DNA of 64,000 bases from Halosimplex rubrum. GTDB lineage: Archaea; Halobacteriota; Halobacteria; Halobacteriales; Haloarculaceae. The DNA is taken from contig NZ_CP058910.1 of assembly GCF_013415885.1 (NCBI RefSeq), positions 3,906,001 to 3,970,000 of the forward strand, written 5' to 3'. Shown here piece by piece: positions 8,085 through 19,240 of the stretch. The position numbers and the translations under genes were made by a program. The notes beneath the pieces were generated by a model. That model was not told the DNA's origin. It searched no databases and saw nothing but the letters and a program-made list of their open reading frames with translations. Within the stretch, counting starts at the first letter, position 1; each line of letters starts with the position of its first letter.

Positions 8085-8477
8085 TCACGGCCGGATACCG
8101 AGGCCGAACTCCATGACGAGCGAGACGCCGAGGACGACCAGGCTGGCGGCGAAGATCTTCTTGTCACGACCGATCCGGTTGTCGAACGGGATCCGCTCGC
8201 CCCGCAGCGGCGGGACCCGTTGCAGACGGGCTTCGAAACCGGTCTGGCGGTCCGACTCCAGGGTCACCCGCTTGCGCTCCCTGTAGGATGGGGTCGGCTG
8301 GATGCCGAAGCTCCCGAGCCCGAACAGGGCGACGCCGGCGAGGAACACGGCGTACTTCGCGGCGACGAGCGTCCCGCCGACGAGGTAGCCGACGACGAGG
8401 GTGCCCCCGGCGACGGCTCCCCCGACGGCGAGCACCCAGACGACGAACTCCGCGACCAGGAGTCGCTTACTCGCCAT
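8085..8477 (-). CDS. Small membrane protein at the end of the peptide transporter operon
   Basis: The 130-residue protein has hydrophobic segments at about residues 7-30, 36-58 and 107-125. A basic loop ([17 protein letters not shown]) lies between the second and third. Its ATG overlaps the end of the ABC ATPase gene by 11 bases, so it is probably translated from the transporter message. No known transporter accessory family was recognised. It may simply be co-transcribed. Confidence 0.7.
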
Positions 8478-9807
8478 CCGACCCGCGGCCGAGCACCGAC
8501 CCGACGCTCTCGTACTCCTCGGCGTGGCGGTGACAGTAGCTCAGCCGGTCGGTGTCGCCCACCGGGTACAGCTCCGGCCGTTCCGTGTCGCAGACGCCGT
8601 CGAACTGCTCGCTCATGTACTCCCGGGCCTGGTCCGGACGACCCGCCTTGACGTACTCGGCGGCCTGTTCGACGTGGCTCCGGACCTCGTCGGGGGTGTC
8701 GTCGTCGAACATATCGGTGACGGTCTCGTCGATGTCGTCGAACCGGTGGAAGGCGCCGGCGCTCCGGCGGATCCGGTCGCGGATCGACAGGTCGATCCGG
8801 GTGCGCTCGCGGATCACCTCCCGGAACCGCTCGATGGCGTTCCACGTCTCCGCGTCGAGATGGGCGTACTCCTCGGGGTGGATCTTGGCCGGACAGCGGG
8901 TGGTGAACTGACACCCCGTCGGCGGGTCCCGCGGGCTCGGCGGCGTCCCCGGTAGCGTGATCCGGTCTTTCTCGACCGTCGGGTCCGGTTCGGGGATCGC
9001 CGACAGAAGCGAGTGGGTGTAGGGGTTGGCCGGGTCGGTGTACAGCTCCTCGGTGTCGCCGATCTCCATGATCTTCCCGAGGTACATCACCGCGACGCGG
9101 TCGCAGATGTGCCGGACCGCAGAGAGGTCGTGGGCGATGAACAGGTACGTCAGGTCGAACTCGTCCTGCAGGTCCTCCAGCAGGTTGAGGATCTTCGCCT
9201 GCACGGAGGTGTCGAGCGCGGACACGGGCTCGTCGAGGACGACGAACTCCGGTTCGAGCGCCAGCGCGCGGGCGATCCCGATGCGCTGGCGCTGCCCGCC
9301 GGAGAACTGGTGCGGGTAGCGGTAGTAGTGTTCGGGCTGGAGCCCGACCTGCGCGAGCAGGTCCTTCACTTTCTCCTGCCGTTCGCGGGGCGTCCCCTCT
9401 TCGTGGACGTCGAGGGGCTCGCGGACGATCTCGCCGATCGTCATCCGGTCGTTGAGGCTCGATTCGGGGTCCTGGAAGACGATCTGGGCGTTGCGGCGCC
9501 ACTGTTTGAGCCGCTGGCCGCTCAGCTCGGTCACGTCGGTGCCGTCGAACTCGACGGTGCCCTCCGTGGCCGTCTCCAGTTGCACGAGCGTCCGGCCGAG
9601 CGTCGTCTTCCCGCAGCCGGACTCGCCGACCAGCCCGAGCGTCTCGCCGCGCTGTATCTGGAAGCTCACGCCGTCGACGGCCTTGACCGGCGGGTCCGCG
9701 AGGAAGCCCCCGCCGCCGTAGTACTTCTTCAGCCCGTCGACCTCGACGAGCGTCTCGCCGACCGCGGCGGCGTCGGTCCGGCCGCGGGGCTGGGTCATCT
9801 CGCTCAT
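8467..9807 (-). CDS. Peptide-type ABC transporter ATPase, OppF/DppF family
   Basis: The 446-residue ATPase powers import through the two permeases encoded upstream. Walker A is [13 protein letters not shown]. The signature is [16 protein letters not shown], followed by Walker [12 protein letters not shown] and the switch histidine in [12 protein letters not shown]. The oligopeptide-transporter C-terminal region with CQFTTRCP follows. About 100 further residues form a tail with [12 protein letters not shown], longer than in typical DppF. The gene overlaps the preceding ATPase gene by four bases (ATGA). The substrate class is assumed from the family. Confidence 0.93.
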
Positions 9808-10982
9808 CGTCGGTCACCCCCGTCGGCCGCGACGTCCTCGCTCGACTCGGACGAATCCGTCCCGCCCGAGTCCGTCGTCCCGTCGCCGTCGTCGCGCGCC
9901 TCGCCGAGCCGCTCGTGGTGTGCGACGGCCTCGCCGGTCGTCATGTGCTCGGGGTAGAGCAGACAGGCGGCGGTGTGGTCGGCCGCGCTCTCGTCGACGT
10001 CGACGAGTTCGGGGTGAACCGCCTCGCACTCCTCGAAGGCCTTCGGACACCGCGGGGCGAACCGACAGTGGGTCGCCGCCTCGTTCGGCGTCGGCACCTC
10101 GCCCTCGATGGTCCGCAGGCGCTCCTCGCCGGCGTGCTGGCCGGGGATCGCCTCCAGCAGCCCCTCCGTGTAGGGGTGTCGGGGGTTCGCGAACAGCTCC
10201 TCGGTCGGCGCCTTCTCGACGATCTCGCCGGCGTACATCACGTTCACGCGGTCGGTGATGTCGGCGATCACGCCCATGTCGTGGGTGATGAACAGTATCG
10301 ACAGGCCCCGCTCGTCCTGCAGGTCCGAGAGCAGTTCGAGGATCTGGGCCTGGATGGTCACGTCCAGCGCGGTCGTCGGCTCGTCGCAGATCAACACTTC
10401 GGGGTCGCAGGCGAGCATCATCGCGATGACCGCCCGCTGGCGCATCCCGCCGGAGAACTCGTGGGGGTACTCCCCCAGCCGGCGGGCCGCGTCGGGGATC
10501 TGGACCGATTCGAGCAGGTCGATCGCCTCCTCGCGGGCCGCCTCGCCGGTGATCCCGCGGTTGACCTTCAGCGCCTCGCGGATCTGGTTGCCGACCGTGA
10601 ACACGGGGTTCAGCGAGGACAGCGGGTCCTGGAAGATCATCCCGATGCCGCTGCCCCGCAGTTCCTGGTACTGGGCCGTGTCGTAGTCGGTGATCTCCTC
10701 GCCCTTGAACCGGATCGACGACCCGGGGAGGACCTCGCCGGGGTCCTCGACGAGTCCCATGATCGACCGGGCGGTGACGGACTTGCCCGAGCCGGACTCG
10801 CCGACGAGGCCGACGGTCTCGCCCTCGTAGAGGTCCAGGTCGATGCCGTCGACGGCCCGGATGGTCTCGCGGTCGGTCCGGAACACCGTCTGGAGGTTCC
10901 GCACCGAGAGGACGGGCTGTTCGCCGCTCCGCCGGCCGTCCGGTACGTCCTCGGCACCGTCGCCCGAGAGCGGAGCGCTCAT
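9804..10982 (-). CDS. Peptide-type ABC transporter ATPase, OppD/DppD family
   Basis: The 392-residue ATPase pairs with the downstream OppF-like protein in the same transporter. Walker A is [13 protein letters not shown] and the signature is [15 protein letters not shown]. Walker B is [14 protein letters not shown], with the switch histidine in [11 protein letters not shown]. The C-terminal [14 protein letters not shown] region is typical of OppD/DppD and in related proteins can carry an iron-sulfur cluster. A short acidic tail ends the protein. It overlaps both neighbours by four bases. Confidence 0.94.
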
Positions 10983-12526
10983 CCGGCGGCACCCCCTGCG
11001 GCCGCCTCCTCTTCACCGCCGCCCTCGCTCTCGGGGTCGATGGCGTCGCGCAGGCCGTCGCCGAACGCGTTGAGTCCGGTCACCAGCACGACGATGAGCA
11101 TCCCGGGGATGAACGCGATGTGCCACGACTGGGTCGAGACGTAGTTGCGACCCATCGAGATGGCCCGGCCCCAGGCGGGGTTGGGCGGGTCGATGCCCAG
11201 GCCGTTCCCGAGGAACGAGAGGGCCGACAGCGTGATGATGACGCCGCCGATCGACATCGACGCGTAGATGAGCAGGTACGGGAGGACGTACGGGAGCATG
11301 TGCTTGCGCATCGTCGTCCGCGGGCGCTGGCCGAAGCTCTTGGCGGCGTCGATCCACTCCTCCTCGGAGACCTGCAGCGCCGGGCCCCGGACGGCTCGCC
11401 ACAGCCCCGGGAACATGATGACCCCGAACGCCAGCGCGTAGAGGAATCCGCCGTGTAGGATGGCCGCCAACCAGTGGCCTTGGAACGCCATCCCGACCAT
11501 CAGCAACAGGAGCAGTCCCGGTATGGACGTGATCCCGTCGGCGACGAGGATCGTCACCAGGTCGATCAGCCCCTTGTAGTACGCCGAGGTCATGGAGGCG
11601 ACGACCGCCAGGAAGCTCGCGAGGACGATCGACAGCGCGGCGATGCTCATCGAGATACGTGCGCCCATGACGGCGAAGGTGAACAGGTCCCGGCCGTTGG
11701 TCAGCGTCCCGAACGGGTGGAACCGGCCGTAGTCGTCGTAGCTCATGACGCCGACGTTCTGGTCGCCCTGTCCCTTCGATTTGGAGTTGAAGTTGGCGTC
11801 GCCGACGTAGGTCGTCTCGACGCTCCCGCTCTCGGCGTCGTAGTACTGCAGCTCGTGGCTGTAGGGCGATTCGATGTTCCGGTCGACGGTCGTCGGACCG
11901 AGCGCCGGGGCGAACAGCGCCATCGTCAGGAAGACGAGCACGACGACGATCCCGAACTGCCCCCAGCGGTGGTCACGCAGGCGGTCGACCACGTCGTCGC
12001 GGGGCGTCCAGTCGGCCTGGCGGTAGTGCTCGCGGAAGACGCCCCAGCCGCGGAACAGCCAGTAGGCCAGCACCGCCGCGTAGACGTACACCAGCGTCGC
12101 GCGGACCGCCCACACGACCGCCGGCTGGAGCCCGAGGAAGGTCCCCTCCCAGGCGCTCGACGGGCCGGTCTGGTACCCCTGATTGGGGAACACGTCCCGC
12201 GAGAGCAGCGTCGGGACGCTGTGGGCCGTGCTGCGGAGCCCGTCGAGGAACCCGCTGGCCGACGACTGGACCCCGAGTACCGCCTCCGCGGCGCCGTCCG
12301 AGAACGCGCCGAGGACGACCTCGACGAGCCCGGTCACCGCGACGACCAGCACGTCCGCGACCAGCAACAGGCCGGCGGCCAGGGCGCCGAACTCAAGGAC
12401 GAGCAAGAGGAGGGCGACCGCCGACCACTGCAGGGCCGGCCGCGGGTTGGCCGCGATCCGTTCGCGCAGCGTCGACTCCTCGCGGCGGCTCCGGTCGGTC
12501 GGCGTGTCGGTGACAGTTGCACACAT
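10979..12526 (-). CDS. Peptide-type ABC transporter permease, DppC family, with N-terminal extension
   Basis: The inner permease is 515 residues, against about 300 for bacterial DppC. The normal core begins near residue 190 (FGIVVVLVFLTMALFAPALG). It includes the EAA-type coupling segment WIDAAKSFGQRPRTTMRKHM that contacts the ATPases. The first 190 residues add about three membrane segments (LLLLVLEFGALAAGLLLVAD and VYVYAAVLAYWLF) with no homology that I recognise. A gap of three bases separates it from the preceding permease gene. The tail is Gly/Glu/Ala-rich. Confidence 0.92.
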   Translation of the reverse strand: MCATVTDTPTDRSRREESTLRERIAANPRPALQWSAVALLLLVLEFGALAAGLLLVADVLVVAVTGLVEVVLGAFSDGAAEAVLGVQSSASGFLDGLRSTAHSVPTLLSRDVFPNQGYQTGPSSAWEGTFLGLQPAVVWAVRATLVYVYAAVLAYWLFRGWGVFREHYRQADWTPRDDVVDRLRDHRWGQFGIVVVLVFLTMALFAPALGPTTVDRNIESPYSHELQYYDAESGSVETTYVGDANFNSKSKGQGDQNVGVMSYDDYGRFHPFGTLTNGRDLFTFAVMGARISMSIAALSIVLASFLAVVASMTSAYYKGLIDLVTILVADGITSIPGLLLLLMVGMAFQGHWLAAILHGGFLYALAFGVIMFPGLWRAVRGPALQVSEEEWIDAAKSFGQRPRTTMRKHMLPYVLPYLLIYASMSIGGVIITLSALSFLGNGLGIDPPNPAWGRAISMGRNYVSTQSWHIAFIPGMLIVVLVTGLNAFGDGLRDAIDPESEGGGEEEAAAGGAAG

Positions 12527-12529
12527 GGG

Positions 12530-13600
12530 TCAGTCGTCGCCTCCTTCGAGGCCGATCCGCGGGTCGATGATCGTGTACGCCACGTCCTGTGCGATGTTGA
12601 AGAACACGAGTATGAGGATGAACACGTAGGTGAGCGCCCCGATTATCGGCACGTCGGAGGCGAAGATCGCCGAGAGATAGAGGTTGCCCAGCCCCCGGAT
12701 CCCGAAGATGAGCTCGACGAGGACCGAGCCGCCGATGAGCAGGTAGAACTCGCCCATGATGACGGGGAGCAGCGGGATCATCGCGTTGCGCGCGACGTGT
12801 TTCCCGATGATCACCCGCTCGGAGAGCCCCTTGGCCTTGGCCGTGTCGATGTAGGGGGCGTTGATGCTCTCCAGGACGGCGGTCCGACCGATACGGACCT
12901 CGTTGCCCATCGAGGAGGAACCGAGCACGAGTGCCGCGGGCAGGATCCACTTGAACGCGACCGCCCAGTTGTAGGGGTTGGGAACCGGTATCCCGATCCC
13001 GCCCAGCGAGTAGCTACCGAACAGGTTGCCGAGCGCCGCGGGGGTACCGATCACGTCCGTCGGTATCAGGAAGCCGCGGTAGAACGACAGCAGGCCGCCG
13101 GCCGACAGGAGGCCGGCGAGCATCACGGCCAGCCAGAAGTTCGGCATGGCGCGCCAGACGATGCCGCCGAAGGAGGCGGTGTAGTCGCCCCAGGTGTTGG
13201 CCCGCAGGCCGGCGTACAGCCCGAGCGGGATGCCCAGCACCAGCGCGATGGCGACCGACCAGGTGCCGAGCCAGAGCGTCGCGGGCATGCGTTCCCAGAT
13301 GAGCTGGGCGGCCGACTGGCCGCGGGTGACGACCCACGACTGGCCGAAGTCGAACGTGGTCGTCTCGATCAGGAAGTTCTTGTACTGGATCCACAGGGGT
13401 ACGGGGTCGCCGTTCGGGTACCGCAGGCCGAGCGAGATGGCGAGTTGCCGCGCGGTCTGGGGGTCCGAGTCGCGGCCCAGGATCGCGGTCATCGGATCGA
13501 ACGGCGAGAGATAGAGGATGACGTACGTCATCGTGAGTCCGAACAGGATCACGGGTACCCCGAGGACGAGCCGTTTCGCGATATACAGGAGTTTGTTCAT
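12530..13600 (-). CDS. Peptide-type ABC transporter permease, DppB family
   Basis: The 356-residue membrane permease forms the translocation path with the DppC-like protein. It starts MNKLLYIAKRLVLGVPVILF and carries LSPFDPMTAILG in the first periplasmic loop. The coupling segment INAPYIDTAKAKGLSERVII faces the ATPases. The ATG at 13600 is preferred over an extension to 13648, which would add a hydrophilic tail unlike the family. The gene follows the binding-protein gene after about 107 bases. Confidence 0.93.
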   Translation of the reverse strand: MNKLLYIAKRLVLGVPVILFGLTMTYVILYLSPFDPMTAILGRDSDPQTARQLAISLGLRYPNGDPVPLWIQYKNFLIETTTFDFGQSWVVTRGQSAAQLIWERMPATLWLGTWSVAIALVLGIPLGLYAGLRANTWGDYTASFGGIVWRAMPNFWLAVMLAGLLSAGGLLSFYRGFLIPTDVIGTPAALGNLFGSYSLGGIGIPVPNPYNWAVAFKWILPAALVLGSSSMGNEVRIGRTAVLESINAPYIDTAKAKGLSERVIIGKHVARNAMIPLLPVIMGEFYLLIGGSVLVELIFGIRGLGNLYLSAIFASDVPIIGALTYVFILILVFFNIAQDVAYTIIDPRIGLEGGDD

Positions 13601-13707: not shown

Positions 13708-15630
13708 TTACTCGGAGCCGCCGACGTGTTCGTCGTACGCCTCGATCCCGCCGGGGAAGATCTGCGGCGGCGTCAGGTGATAGGCCGGTTCGAAGCGGCC
13801 CTTGAAGACGTTCTGCATGAACTCGGGCTGGTTGATGACGTACGCCATCGCCTGTCGGACGGGCCTGGGCACCGCCTCCATGTTGAAGCCGACGTAGTAG
13901 GTGCCGATGTCGGGAGTCCGGGCGTAGTTGACGCTGGTCCCGTTCTCGAGGTCGTAGGTACCCAGATCGCGGCCGACGTCGTCGGTCTCCTCGATGGTCA
14001 CGCTGTCGGCCTGGTACTGCGAGGTTGGGACGCCGCCGATGTCGGCGTTCTCGTTGAGGAAGTAGTTGTACCGCGCCTGGGGCTCGGTGAGGATCGTGGC
14101 GTCGATACCGTCGAAGGAAGCGCCCTCGCCGTGGTAGTCGTCGAAGGCGTCCAGGACGAACTCGCCGCCGTTGCCCGACTCCCAGTTGACGAACTCGAAG
14201 GGACCGGCGCCGACGGGGTTCTGGGAGAACTCCGACCACTCCATCTCGCCCTCGTAGCCCTCGACGTCGCCGACGATGCCCTCGGGGACCGCCGAGAACG
14301 CGGAGTACGCCAGCACGGACAGCGAGAACGCGAACGGGTTCTCGGTCGTGATCTCCAGGGTGTAGTCGTCGACCGCGTTGACACCGATCGAGTCCGGGAT
14401 GATCCGGGTGGTCGTCTCCGGTTCACCGCTGTCGGTCGCCGTGACGGTGTTGCCGTCCTCGTCGGTCACCGTGACCTCCTCGGTCTCGTGTTCGATGCCC
14501 ATGACGCTGACGGGGAACCGCGCGTTCGTGGAGTTCGAGGAGACCATCAGCCGCTTGATGGAGTACTCGAGGTCCTGTGCGGTGACGTCGTCGCCGTTGT
14601 GGAACGTCGCGCCCTCTTTCAGCGTGAACGTGTACGTGGTGAAGTCGTCGCTGAGCTCGTACTCCTCGGCGAGCAGGTTCTCGACCTCCGTCGTCCCGTT
14701 GGCGTAGTTCGTCAGCGCGTCGAACATGTCCATGATCTTGCCGCCGGACGCGGTGTTGCCGGAGGCGATCGGGTCGAGGCTGCTGAACGTCGAGGAGATC
14801 GTGCTGAGCCGGTCTTTGCCTTCCAGTCCCGCGACGGAGTTGTTGGCCTTCGCCCGCGAGGGACCCATCGGTCCCGGCGGGTTGTAGTCGACGTGGTCGT
14901 ACCACATCCCCTCGGTGACACCCTGATACAGCGGGATGAGCGCGGCCTCCTGCCACATGCCTTCCTCCAGCGCGACGGTGGCCTCACCGCGGATCTGAGC
15001 GGCCTCTTCGGTGTCCTGGGGGTTGTCCTCGATGCGGTCGAACTGGTCCATCATGTACTGGCGGACCGCCGGGTCGGCCTCGGCGTCCTCGGACCAGAAC
15101 AGCCGGGCCCCGTTGGCCGCGCTGTTGTCGGCGTACATCGTGTTCGGCGGGTCGATGAGCTGGACGAAGTTCTGCGGACCGGGGTAGTCGGCGACCCACC
15201 CGAGGGTGTAGGCCTCGTGGTTGCCGTTCCGGGTGGTCTCCAGCAGCGGCGAGAACGCCGCCGAGCTCTGGTTCATGTCGATGTAGGCCGACTCGAGTCG
15301 GCTGGCGATCGTCGACGCCATCTCCTCCCAGGTCGGGCTCTCGTACTGGAGCCAGTCGAGTTCGAAGCGGTTGTCCGGGCCGTAGCCCGCCTCCTCCATC
15401 ACCCGCTGGGCCTCCCCGATCATCGTCTCGCCGACGCCGTAGGGGTACTCGCTCACCGTTACGGCTTCACCGTCGGTCCCCGTGTCGGTCGATCCGCTGT
15501 CGTCATCGGGCGTGGCGGTGTCGCCGCCGTCGCTCCCGCAGCCCGCTACCGCGGAGGTGAGGGCGGCCGCGCCGGTCGCTTTCAGAAATCGTCGTCGGCT
15601 GGTGTCGGAGTCGTCAGTATCGCGAGGCAT
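13708..15630 (-). CDS. Peptide-type ABC substrate-binding lipoprotein, circularly permuted
   Basis: The 640-residue protein has a Tat signal (SRRRFLKATG) and a lipobox ending at Cys31, so it should be an exported lipoprotein that hands substrate to the permeases. The family-5 binding fold is present, but its order is reversed. Residues 62-258 carry what is normally the C-terminal lobe (AQRVMEEAGYG, TLGWVADYPGPQNF, EAALIPLYQGV). Residues 272-640 carry the normal N-terminal part (TFSSLDPIAS, YTFTLKEGATFHNGDDVTAQ) and end at VRQAMAYVINQPEF...EHVGGSE, the point that usually precedes YPYGVGE. The frame is intact. An assembly artefact cannot be excluded by eye. Confidence 0.9.
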   Translation of the reverse strand: MPRDTDDSDTSRRRFLKATGAAALTSAVAGCGSDGGDTATPDDDSGSTDTGTDGEAVTVSEYPYGVGETMIGEAQRVMEEAGYGPDNRFELDWLQYESPTWEEMASTIASRLESAYIDMNQSSAAFSPLLETTRNGNHEAYTLGWVADYPGPQNFVQLIDPPNTMYADNSAANGARLFWSEDAEADPAVRQYMMDQFDRIEDNPQDTEEAAQIRGEATVALEEGMWQEAALIPLYQGVTEGMWYDHVDYNPPGPMGPSRAKANNSVAGLEGKDRLSTISSTFSSLDPIASGNTASGGKIMDMFDALTNYANGTTEVENLLAEEYELSDDFTTYTFTLKEGATFHNGDDVTAQDLEYSIKRLMVSSNSTNARFPVSVMGIEHETEEVTVTDEDGNTVTATDSGEPETTTRIIPDSIGVNAVDDYTLEITTENPFAFSLSVLAYSAFSAVPEGIVGDVEGYEGEMEWSEFSQNPVGAGPFEFVNWESGNGGEFVLDAFDDYHGEGASFDGIDATILTEPQARYNYFLNENADIGGVPTSQYQADSVTIEETDDVGRDLGTYDLENGTSVNYARTPDIGTYYVGFNMEAVPRPVRQAMAYVINQPEFMQNVFKGRFEPAYHLTPPQIFPGGIEAYDEHVGGSE

Positions 15631-15850: not shown

Positions 15851-16399
15851 TTATCGGTGAATTTCGACCGATTCGAGGACGACGGTGTCGATCGGTCGAT
15901 CACTGGGGTCCGTCTCGACGGAGCCGATCTCCTCGACGACGTCCATGCCGTCGACGACTTCGCCGAAGACGGCGTGTTTGTCGTCGAGGTGGGGCTGGGC
16001 GTCCAGCGTGACGAAGAACTGCGAGCCGTTGGTGTCCGGGCCGCGGTTGGCCATCGAGAGCTTCCCGGGGGAGTCGTGGCGCAGGTCGTCGTGGAACTCG
16101 TCGTCGAACGTGTAGCCCGGGCCGCCGCGACCGGTGCCGGTCGGGTCGCCCACCTGGAGCATGAAGTCCTCGATGACGCGGTGGAACTCCACGTCGTCGT
16201 ACAGCGGGTCGACGCGCTTCTCCCCGCTCTCGGGGTCCTCCCAGGCGCCCTCGCCCGGGCCGACCTCGGCCGCCTCGTAGTCGGATTCGGTCGCGTGGTC
16301 GACGAACGCCTCGACGGTGTTCGGGACCTTCTCTTCGAACAGTCGCACCTCGATGTCGCCCTCGGACGTGTGGAGCGTCGCTGTCAGTTCGTCACTCAT
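15851..16399 (-). CDS. Cyclophilin-type peptidyl-prolyl isomerase
   Basis: The 182-residue cytoplasmic protein catalyses cis-trans isomerisation of X-Pro bonds during folding. It shows the cyclophilin core: LHTSEGDIEVRLFEEKVPNT at the start, YDDVEFHRVIEDFMLQVGDP with the catalytic FHR, MANRGPDTNGSQFFVTL, and LDDKHAVFGEVVDGMDVV. A short acidic insert (about residues 40-60) is usual for haloarchaeal members. The ATG at 16399 gives the normal start. No signal peptide is present. Confidence 0.95.
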   Translation of the reverse strand: MSDELTATLHTSEGDIEVRLFEEKVPNTVEAFVDHATESDYEAAEVGPGEGAWEDPESGEKRVDPLYDDVEFHRVIEDFMLQVGDPTGTGRGGPGYTFDDEFHDDLRHDSPGKLSMANRGPDTNGSQFFVTLDAQPHLDDKHAVFGEVVDGMDVVEEIGSVETDPSDRPIDTVVLESVEIHR

Positions 16400-16501: not shown

Positions 16502-17614
16502 TCACATGGACGGACCGACCCGGGTGATCGCCGAGGAAACGAGCCCGTGTTCCTCCGCGCGCACGCCCTCGCCGCCCGCGATCGCCCGCAAGCGGGCGAG
16601 CAGGTCCTCGGGGTCGGCCGCCGTCGCGTCCACGTCGATGTCGTCGCCCACCGCGTCGAGCGTCGCCCGGTCGCCCGAGACCTTCACCACCGGCGCGACC
16701 GGGTGACCGGTCGCCACGCCGTCGCCGGTGACGTGGACCACGACCTGCGTCCCGGCCGCGACGAGACCCGTCGCCGCCTCCGCGAACCGCGAGGGGGCGT
16801 CGACGACCGCCAGCCCCTCGTCGTGGGTCGCCCGCTCGCCGTAGTCGAGGACCGCCCGGGTCGGCCGGTCCCCCCAGGCACGCGTCACCGCCTCGAACTC
16901 GTGCTCGCGCGCATCGCGCCCGACGCGGGCCGCCCGCGCGGGCCGTCCGCGGTGGCGTTCCGCGAGGTCGCGGACGGCCGCGGCCGCCCCGTCGTCCACC
17001 GCCCGTCGGGCCGTCTCCTCGGGGTGGGCGGCCACGCGCTCGCTCCCCGCCGCGACCACCCGCGCGCCCGCGTCGACAAGCTCGTCGACGACCGCGCCGA
17101 CCAGCGGGTCCGCGGTCTCCCGGGTCGACTCGGCGAGATCGCCCGAGACCACGCCGACCGTGAGATCCGAGAGGGTCGCCGTCGTGGACGCTCCGCCGTC
17201 GTCGGTCGGTCGATCCCGCAGTTCCTCGACGGCGTCGACCCCGGCCTCGACCGTCGCGTCGGTACCGCCGGCGTCCTGGATCGCGGTCTCGCGGACCGGG
17301 ACACCCAGACCGGTCAGATCGGCCGCCACGTCGTCGCTCTGGATCGACTCACAGCCCAGGCCGACGACGACCGTCCCGGCGACGTTGGGGTTCGCGCCGA
17401 CGCCGAGAAACGTTCGGTGGGTCTGGGCCTTGTCGGCGCCGATCTGGCCGCAGCCGTGGTCGTGAGGCGCGCTGACCGCTCCGGGCACCCGGTCGGCGAT
17501 CCGGTCGGCGACGGCCCGCGAGCAGATGACCGACGGCAGAACGAGCACCCGGTCGCGGACGCCGACGCCGCGGTCGCCGCGGTCGACCGCCTCGAACCCC
17601 TGGCGCAGACTCAT
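16502..17614 (-). CDS. UxaA-family large subunit, divergent paralog
   Basis: The 370-residue protein matches the C-terminal domain of altronate/galactarate dehydratases, also seen as SuyB in sulfolactate sulfo-lyase. It has RDRVLVLPSVICS at the start, HDHGCGQIGADKAQTHRTFL with conserved cysteine and histidine, GVGANPNVAGTVVVGLGCE, and HPVAPVVKVSGD near the end. It is a paralog of the protein encoded at 17967-19151 but lacks about 25 residues and is more divergent. Its start at 17614 overlaps the stop of the SAF-domain gene (ATGA). The three genes form one operon. The substrate is unknown. Confidence 0.82.
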   Translation of the reverse strand: MSLRQGFEAVDRGDRGVGVRDRVLVLPSVICSRAVADRIADRVPGAVSAPHDHGCGQIGADKAQTHRTFLGVGANPNVAGTVVVGLGCESIQSDDVAADLTGLGVPVRETAIQDAGGTDATVEAGVDAVEELRDRPTDDGGASTTATLSDLTVGVVSGDLAESTRETADPLVGAVVDELVDAGARVVAAGSERVAAHPEETARRAVDDGAAAAVRDLAERHRGRPARAARVGRDAREHEFEAVTRAWGDRPTRAVLDYGERATHDEGLAVVDAPSRFAEAATGLVAAGTQVVVHVTGDGVATGHPVAPVVKVSGDRATLDAVGDDIDVDATAADPEDLLARLRAIAGGEGVRAEEHGLVSSAITRVGPSM

Positions 17615-17970
17615 CGGCCGTCCCCCGCGTGCCCGGCGTCGCCGTCCGCGGCGGCCGCCCCGTCTCCGGTCGCGGCCGCCGCCCGGTCGCCGCGCCCGCG
17701 CGTGCTCTCGCAGTTGTGGGTGTGGACCCACTCGCCGGCGGCGATCGGCTCGGTCGCCTCGCCGATCACCTCGCCGTACTTCCGGACGGTCTCGCCGACG
17801 TCGAGGTCCGCGAGCGCGACTTTGTGGCCGAACGGGACCTCCTCGGCGACGGTCACCGACGGGTCGGCGTCGTCGAGTCGCTCGCCGGCGTCGAGGTCCG
17901 CCAGCGCCGTCGCGACGGTGTCCTCGGGTGCCATCACGAGCGCGCGCTCGTTCAGCAGTTCTCCTTTCAT
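17611..17970 (-). CDS. SAF-domain small subunit of a UxaA/SuyA-like lyase
   Basis: The 119-residue protein is the SAF domain that forms the N-terminal part of UxaA or the separate SuyA subunit. VPFGHKVALADLDVGETVRK and EWVHTHNCES are the typical strand and histidine-rich segments. It sits between two genes for the large domain and overlaps each by four bases, so the three are translated together. The tail is Ala/Gly/Asp-rich and looks disordered. The reaction is probably beta-elimination from a hydroxyacid, and I cannot name the acid. Confidence 0.85.
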   Translation of the reverse strand: MKGELLNERALVMAPEDTVATALADLDAGERLDDADPSVTVAEEVPFGHKVALADLDVGETVRKYGEVIGEATEPIAAGEWVHTHNCESTRGRGDRAAAATGDGAAAADGDAGHAGDGR

Positions 17971-19151
17971 CGCTGTCCCTCCGCGGCGAGTTCCCGCGGT
18001 TGGCGCTCGTTGATCGCGAACTCCTCGAGTCGGCGGGCCTCGGCGGCCGTCTCCGCGCCATCGGCCACCGACAGCAGCGTCCGGTAGATCCGCTCGCCGA
18101 CCTCGCCGAGCGGTTCGCCGTCGATGACCGCGCTGGCGTCGACGTCCATGTTGGACGCGAGCCGCTCGGCGGTCCTGTGGTTGCCGGTCACCTTGATCAC
18201 CGGCGCGATGGGGTTGCCCGTCGTCGACCCGCGACCGGTGGTGAAGGCGACGACCTGCGCGCCGCCGGCCACCTTGCCGACGACGCTCTCGACGTCGTAG
18301 CCCGGTGAGTCCATCACCGTCACGCCGCCGCCGACCGGGATCGCCTCGCCGTAGTCGACGACGTGGCGGATATCCCGGGTCCCGCACTTGGCGAGCGCGC
18401 CGAGGCTCTTCTCCTCGATGGTCGTCAGCCCGCCCTCCTGGTTGCCCGGCGAGGGCTGGGCGCCGCGCATGTCCACGCCCATCAGGTCCGCGAGGCGCTC
18501 GCGGCGCTCGACCCGATCCAGCAGTTTCTCGCGCGTCTCCTCGTCCGCGCAGCGCTCGGCGGCGACGTGTTCGGCGCCGATGAACTCCGGCGTCTCCGAG
18601 ATGCAGACAGCCCCGCCCGCGTCGACGAGCCGGTCCGAGGCGTCGCCCAGCGCCGGGTTGGCCGCGATGCCGCTCGTGGCGTCGCTGCCGCCGCACTCGA
18701 CGGCGAAGACGAGTTCGCTCGCGTCGGCTTCCTCGCGGCGCTGGTCCCCGATCTCGTCCCACAGGTCGACCAGGATATCCGCACCGGCGTCGAGCGCGCC
18801 CGCGGTCCCGCCGACCTCGCGGACGGTCAGCGTCTCGACGGGCTTGCCCGAGGCAGCGATATCGTCGGCGAGGTCGTCGGCGTCGATGTCCTCGGTCCCG
18901 AGTTCGACGACGAGCGCCGCGCCGACGTTCGGATTCCGCCCGATCCCCGCGAGCACCGACCGGGTGCGTTCGCGGCCCTCCTCGGGCTGGCTCGTCCCCA
19001 TCTGGTGGGGCGTCGCCCGCGCCCAGCGGCCCGCGTCGCCGGCGATCCGGTCGGCGACCGGGCTCGCCGCGACCGACGTGGGCAACACGGCGACGTGGTT
19101 GCGCACGCCGATCCGGCCGTCCGGCCGGCGATATCCCTCGAAAGTGTCCAT
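17967..19151 (-). CDS. UxaA-family large subunit (altronate/galactarate dehydratase or SuyB-like)
   Basis: The 394-residue catalytic subunit belongs to the UxaA C-terminal family of Fe-dependent hydroxyacid lyases. Diagnostic segments are GIGRNPNVGAALVVELGTE, VECGGSDATSGIAANPALG, VCISETPEFIGAEH, CGTRDIRHVVDYGE, and FTTGRGSTTGNPIAPVIKVT. Several of these are better conserved than in the downstream paralog. The ATG at 19151 is chosen over the GTG at 19166 because GGAGG lies at workable distance from it and only two bases from the GTG. It heads the three-gene operon. Confidence 0.87.
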   Translation of the reverse strand: MDTFEGYRRPDGRIGVRNHVAVLPTSVAASPVADRIAGDAGRWARATPHQMGTSQPEEGRERTRSVLAGIGRNPNVGAALVVELGTEDIDADDLADDIAASGKPVETLTVREVGGTAGALDAGADILVDLWDEIGDQRREEADASELVFAVECGGSDATSGIAANPALGDASDRLVDAGGAVCISETPEFIGAEHVAAERCADEETREKLLDRVERRERLADLMGVDMRGAQPSPGNQEGGLTTIEEKSLGALAKCGTRDIRHVVDYGEAIPVGGGVTVMDSPGYDVESVVGKVAGGAQVVAFTTGRGSTTGNPIAPVIKVTGNHRTAERLASNMDVDASAVIDGEPLGEVGERIYRTLLSVADGAETAAEARRLEEFAINERQPRELAAEGQR

Positions 19152-19240
19152 TGACTCTGTACTCACCCTCCGAGCGCAAGAAACTGTCGCGGTTCACCGG
19201 AAACTGTCGGTCGGCGGGCGAGGAGCCCGCGTCGGTCCCC

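Follow-up and report, generated by a model that had tools for sequence, protein, structure and literature searches.

The stretch of DNA analyzed here (hereafter, the window) comprises 64,000 nucleotides of the genome of the haloarchaeon Halosimplex rubrum, which is assembled as one 4.48-Mb contig. Translation of its minus strand, on which all features of the gene described below and of its operon are located, gives a fully open frame at positions 13708-15630 with a product of 640 aa. The first 31 residues (15538-15630) form a predicted Tat signal peptide with a lipobox, which is kept in the class I homologs defined below and scores 17.7 bits with the NCBIfam TAT signal model TIGR01409 (cut-off 16.7). 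The Tat motif reads SRRRFLKAT and the lipobox is VAGC with Cys31, and with a twin-arginine motif and a lipobox Cys the product has the sequence hallmarks of a haloarchaeal Tat lipoprotein. They are followed by an Asp/Gly/Thr-rich low-complexity tether (residues 32-61, 15448-15537), which differs among homologs in both length and sequence and for which the predicted pLDDT is mostly below 50. The gene is a substrate-binding protein (SBP) gene that adjoins genes of two permeases and two ATPases, the arrangement of an Opp/Dpp-type ABC importer operon. These are a dppB-type permease (12530-13600, with a likely ATG start at 13600 and the frame open to 13648) and a dppC-type permease (10979-12526), both matched by NCBIfam permease models, an ORF for a dppD-type ATPase with Walker A and signature motifs (9804-10982) and an ORF for a dppF-type ATPase (8467-9807), the order of the latter two being kept in homologs. 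In nearly all loci with enough flanking sequence dppB, dppC, dppD and dppF lie directly downstream, for permuted and normal SBPs alike. Upstream of the operon, a peptidyl-prolyl isomerase gene (15851-16399) and two adjacent frames similar to UxaA/altronate dehydratase-type proteins (16502-19166, minus strand) were recognized by eye from their translations alone. The same genome also encodes a paralog of the SBP in normal order (G000:C1:313568-315235).

A collinear match, from N- to C-terminus, is usual for proteins of the family PF00496 (SBP_bac_5), though it is no curated condition of membership. The window protein lacks such a match: its N-terminal part corresponds to profile positions 263-361 and its C-terminal part to positions 1-260, each part exceeds the curated cut-off, and the protein scores 204.7 bits in two stretches against a cut-off of 32.4. 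Residues 62-265 (segment B, 14836-15447) comprise most of domain III and the piece of domain I that was originally C-terminal; they match MppA/OppA chain positions 336-480 in phmmer searches and stand C-terminal in normal-order homologs. Residues 274-640 (segment A, 13711-14811) contain the start of domain I, domain II, the rest of domain I and the start of domain III, and match OppA/DppA chain positions from about 18 to 340. Between them lies the joint, VAGLEGKD (residues 266-273, 14812-14835), which leads from the original C-terminus to the original N-terminus; in 35 of 37 class I proteins the segment hits are likewise separated by 8 residues. Let A stand for the ~370 residues that come first in a normal protein, and let B1 and B2 be the two successive parts of the ~200 residues that close it; the normal order is then A-B1-B2, and the order of the window protein, B1-B2-A, is referred to here as class I. 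Since both parts are homologous to the family, the window protein appears to be a permuted relative within SBP_bac_5; with both parts homologous to one normal-order family, their order swapped and a single open frame, it qualifies as a circularly permuted SBP. An earlier note on this DNA had described the Tat signal and lipobox, closing segments of family 5 placed ahead of the opening ones, and a protein that ends at the point normally leading into YPYGVGE, and our analysis bears out all three observations. It had also taken Ser-Glu as a shared mark of both joints. This did not hold up: homologs start with VDG-YPYG, NG-YPYG or SS-YPYG and end with HVGSE, HYKPE or HWQGE, and because Ser-Glu is not kept among them, its presence at the joints is a coincidence and not a scar.

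Structure prediction with AF2 gave a pLDDT of 44.6 when a 12-sequence alignment was supplied; when it was repeated with an alignment of 147 rows, some of them A and B fragments of normal proteins entered separately, the permuted chain was modeled with a pLDDT of 90.4 and a pTM of 0.87, values that should be read with those fragment rows in mind. The predicted model has the bilobed three-domain fold of a cluster C protein, and its 50 best Foldseek matches in the PDB are all family-5 SBPs, in agreement with the permutation proposed in the earlier note. The matches extend over ~260-300 of ~500 columns, as the permutation predicts, because a sequential aligner follows one part only. The swapped order is absent from the solved family-5 structures matched by phmmer and from the 50 best PDB matches of Foldseek. 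In Borrelia OppAIV, domain I is made of residues 30-62, 187-285 and 504-530, domain II of residues 63-186 and domain III of residues 286-503 (PMC5736914). Alignment to this protein and its domain limits places the class I cut at about position 340, inside domain III, so that the old N- and C-terminal pieces of domain I are now contiguous and domain III is now split. The earlier view that the lobes come in the opposite order is thus right as to the swapped order of segments but not as to whole lobes, the cut being internal to domain III. The joint of the window protein is a predicted turn with strands at residues 266-269 and 274-279 on its two sides. Because the new N-terminus sits in domain III, the lipid anchor would now be on lobe 2 and no longer on lobe 1. 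Asp419 of OppA and Asp431 of BbOppA4 bind the amino terminus of the peptide (PMC5736914). Asp148 of the window protein, in LGWVADY (15187-15189), is aligned with the peptide-amine Asp of Borrelia OppAIV and is invariant across the class I alignment; judging from the sequence, peptide capture would be ordinary, with the anchor on lobe 2, not lobe 1.

The class I order was found in all 8 genomes of the genus, including that of the window, as one uninterrupted match with 80-92% identity; homologs in other genera and families are 50-60% identical. It is present in 20 of the 292 Halobacteria genomes of the drawn sample and on 24 NCBI contigs (L046-L069) that come from MAGs and from at least ten named haloarchaeal genera: Halosimplex, Halolamina, Halobacterium (including H. 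salinarum), Haloquadratum, Halorhabdus, Halodesulfurarchaeum, Halosegnis, Halonotius, Halapricum and Halorubrum. A search of plasmids (1,464 records) revealed no bacterial class I order, the bacterial records among the matches listed covering the A part only and the sensitivity for the B part being poor; the nine records that cover most of the query are haloarchaeal and do so in two pieces.

A second haloarchaeal permuted group, class II, has the order B2-A-B1 and is cut elsewhere than class I. Near-full-length matches in this order were counted, among the matches listed, in at least 30 of the 292 Halobacteria genomes; the group is widespread in Halobacteria (examples are L033, L038, L045 and L172-L198) and forms one clade (100), apart from which stands L034 (L193:4938-6800, minus strand; G021:C1:2401762-2403621), a single protein with the class II order. 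In class II proteins other than L034, GW-x-WSW or WSY stands in place of the GW-x-A-D motif, the peptide-amine Asp being replaced by Ser, and this loss suggests that the class II ligand may differ. The gene of L034 is followed by dppB, dppC and dppD, and its two halves share 65% and 71% identity with normal-order proteins. In principle, a single ancient permutation, followed by later re-cutting or reversion, could underlie class I, class II and L034. Class I is indeed next to class II in the transporter tree (98) and, with weak support, in the SBP subset tree (70/70), the joints of basal class I proteins (L026, L027) roughly equal class II joints in length, and an AU test on a 77-row quick tree rejects neither a clade of class II with L034 (p 0.147) nor a clade of class I, class II and L034 (p 0.156). 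In the careful 39-row tree, however, L034 is nested inside a clade of normal-order proteins with a support of 100/99 and the AU test rejects both groupings (p 1.8e-6 and p 1.1e-6, respectively); moreover, the L034 joint is longer and unrelated, and the young family from outside Halobacteria, which is described below, is separate in any case. We therefore regard a single ancient event as unlikely. L034 is probably a separate permutation event, and a common older fusion may underlie classes I and II.

Permuted proteins from outside Halobacteria were found with a joint-spanning profile (A5) in a family of archaea that may be the Archaeoglobaceae. An ortholog is present in 27 of its 55 genomes, permuted in 3 (G405, G439 and G397) and normal in 24, and normal-order proteins of the same genus as the permuted three (G381, G393, G440 and G441) show 84-86% identity to them. 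The permuted loci are L248, L249 and L250, to be compared with L251-L255. The three permuted proteins form a clade (100/100) nested among normal-order proteins, and thus the direction of change was from normal to permuted. At the DNA level, two blocks are exchanged. The normal proteins have C-AQQ...KEEVKA-ITIGV; the permuted proteins have C-AQQ...KEEAKK-LKIELWW at their start, and their joint runs YYLVY-SEEQKD-TITIGV. On our reading, the permuted proteins therefore contain twice, at the new start and again at the joint, a short stretch similar to the signal-peptide linker (KEE-type), as a model of duplication, fusion and trimming would predict. Relative to dppBCDF the permuted gene is divergent, while in G351 the gene is co-directional and in the normal members of the genus it is located elsewhere. 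Since the position of the gene also changed, other rearrangements accompanied this young permutation, and it is possible that a more complex rearrangement lies behind it. In G397, the permuted gene is closely followed, on the opposite strand, by an ORF that looks transposase-like by eye (L250:6723-7769, minus strand); this ORF is absent from the corresponding place in G405.

Class I is one clade in trees built from A only, from B only and from both combined (SH-aLRT 96, 96 and 99), which means that its A and B halves share one history, and the class I transporters are likewise one clade (100) in the concatenated transporter tree. It may be argued that the window protein is a chimera, in which the B half of a different paralog was joined to the A half: the A and B trees disagree slightly, and with weak support, on the sister group of class I, and such an origin was also considered for TpMglB-2 by the authors of the work on that protein (PMC4990184). 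We consider this very unlikely, because class I falls inside the same haloarchaeal group in both trees with no strongly supported conflict, and because in the young case both halves are 84-88% identical to the same orthologs in the genus, which makes the permutation clear there. That the swap is limited to one assembly, or that the gene is a decaying local pseudogene, has virtually nothing in its favor beyond the unusual order itself: an order that is identical in dozens of independent assemblies is not an artefact, the frame is fully open, and pairwise dN/dS within the genus, at 0.09-0.35 across both halves, is well below 1 and indicates purifying selection on both. The in-frame circular permutation put forward in the earlier note thus withstands the two objections raised there, a misassembly and a first part that is a different domain, since the swapped order is common to homologs in at least ten genera and the mature chain opens with ~200 residues that have their homologs in the C-terminal part of family-5 proteins.

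Taken as a circularly permuted protein, the product of the window gene is very likely, given its segment order, conservation, operon, purifying selection, predicted fold and retained peptide-amine Asp, a working lipid-anchored SBP that serves an Opp/Dpp-type ABC importer whose substrates are most probably peptides. Its chain consists of the signal, lipobox and tether region, then the ~200 residues (B) that end an ordinary family-5 protein, then a short joint and finally the ~370 residues (A) with which such a protein begins. The original termini appear to be adjacent in domain I, and because they lie side by side there, joining them would leave the fold and its Venus-flytrap closure intact, while the new ends on the surface of domain III would place the anchor on lobe 2 and not on lobe 1. 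By the most probable route, a tandem duplicate was fused in frame, head to tail, and then the first A, except for the signal and tether, and the last B were lost. The permutation would have arisen once, in the ancestor of the class I haloarchaeal clade, and similar changes would have occurred independently elsewhere in archaea. Tandem duplication with trimming had already been guessed in the earlier note and gains support by analogy from the young case, where the signal-peptide linker is found twice. The event in the window gene is evidently too old for DNA traces to have survived, and a search of the fetched loci for a duplicated A-B-A-B intermediate found none.

At least two independent origins of permuted archaeal SBPs are secure, that of haloarchaeal class I and that of the young family. 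A third, L034, is well supported, and class II is either a fourth origin or goes back to a fusion common with class I. All mapped cuts fall in domain III, which is about 40% of the chain, and the location of the cuts in the same domain over three or four events is suggestive only. It is conceivable, though we are doubtful, that archaeal family-5 SBPs were repeatedly permuted in three or four independent events with the new ends always in domain III because an anchor shifted to lobe 2 is favored over one on lobe 1; if so, this shift could alter the opening, closing or permease docking of the tethered protein. The natural circular permutations known so far are usually old pairs that have little sequence left to compare, and their direction and route are guessed. 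Archaeal family 5 shows several permutations, of which two are old and widespread, one is a single case and one is young (~85% identity, within one genus). The young case opens permuted and normal orthologs to direct comparison and makes the duplication-fusion-trimming model directly testable, likewise the meaning of the tether site. There is also a consequence for annotation: collinear domain models split permuted proteins, and sequential structure searches align about half of them.

No report of a permuted family-5 or cluster C SBP was found in the literature searched (open-access PMC papers). The closest known proteins are OppA and DppA (PF00496, cluster C), which the window protein resembles in sequence family, predicted fold, dppBCDF operon, lipobox and the Asp of the GW-x-x-D motif and from which it differs in that the original C-terminal ~200 residues come first and the termini are in domain III, not domain I. 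TpMglB-2 of Treponema pallidum, a circularly permuted sugar-binding protein of cluster B, is likewise a natural permutation of a tethered SBP that is kept in a clade, and it retains ligand binding (PMC4990184). However, it is a bacterial type I protein cut within the N lobe, with one described origin and a permuted part that may stem from another gene (PMC4990184). Circular permutation among bilobed binding proteins is also represented by the glycine-betaine-binding proteins OpuAC and ProX and molybdate-binding proteins, which make up one CPSARST circular-permutation family (PMC2395249). Its members were found by structure comparison and share <24% identity (PMC2395249), so that the direction and route of the change are hidden, whereas identity between the archaeal permuted orthologs and their normal counterparts reaches ~88%. 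The pneumococcal oligopeptide-binding protein AliC forms a domain-swapped dimer, in which the lobes of a cluster C protein are exchangeable between chains, suggesting that a fused duplicate could fold; its sequence, however, is not permuted, and the exchange is between chains (PMC11192437). Circularly permuted SBPs as such are therefore known already, and what appears to be new here is their occurrence in family 5, as a series of independent events and with a young case among them.
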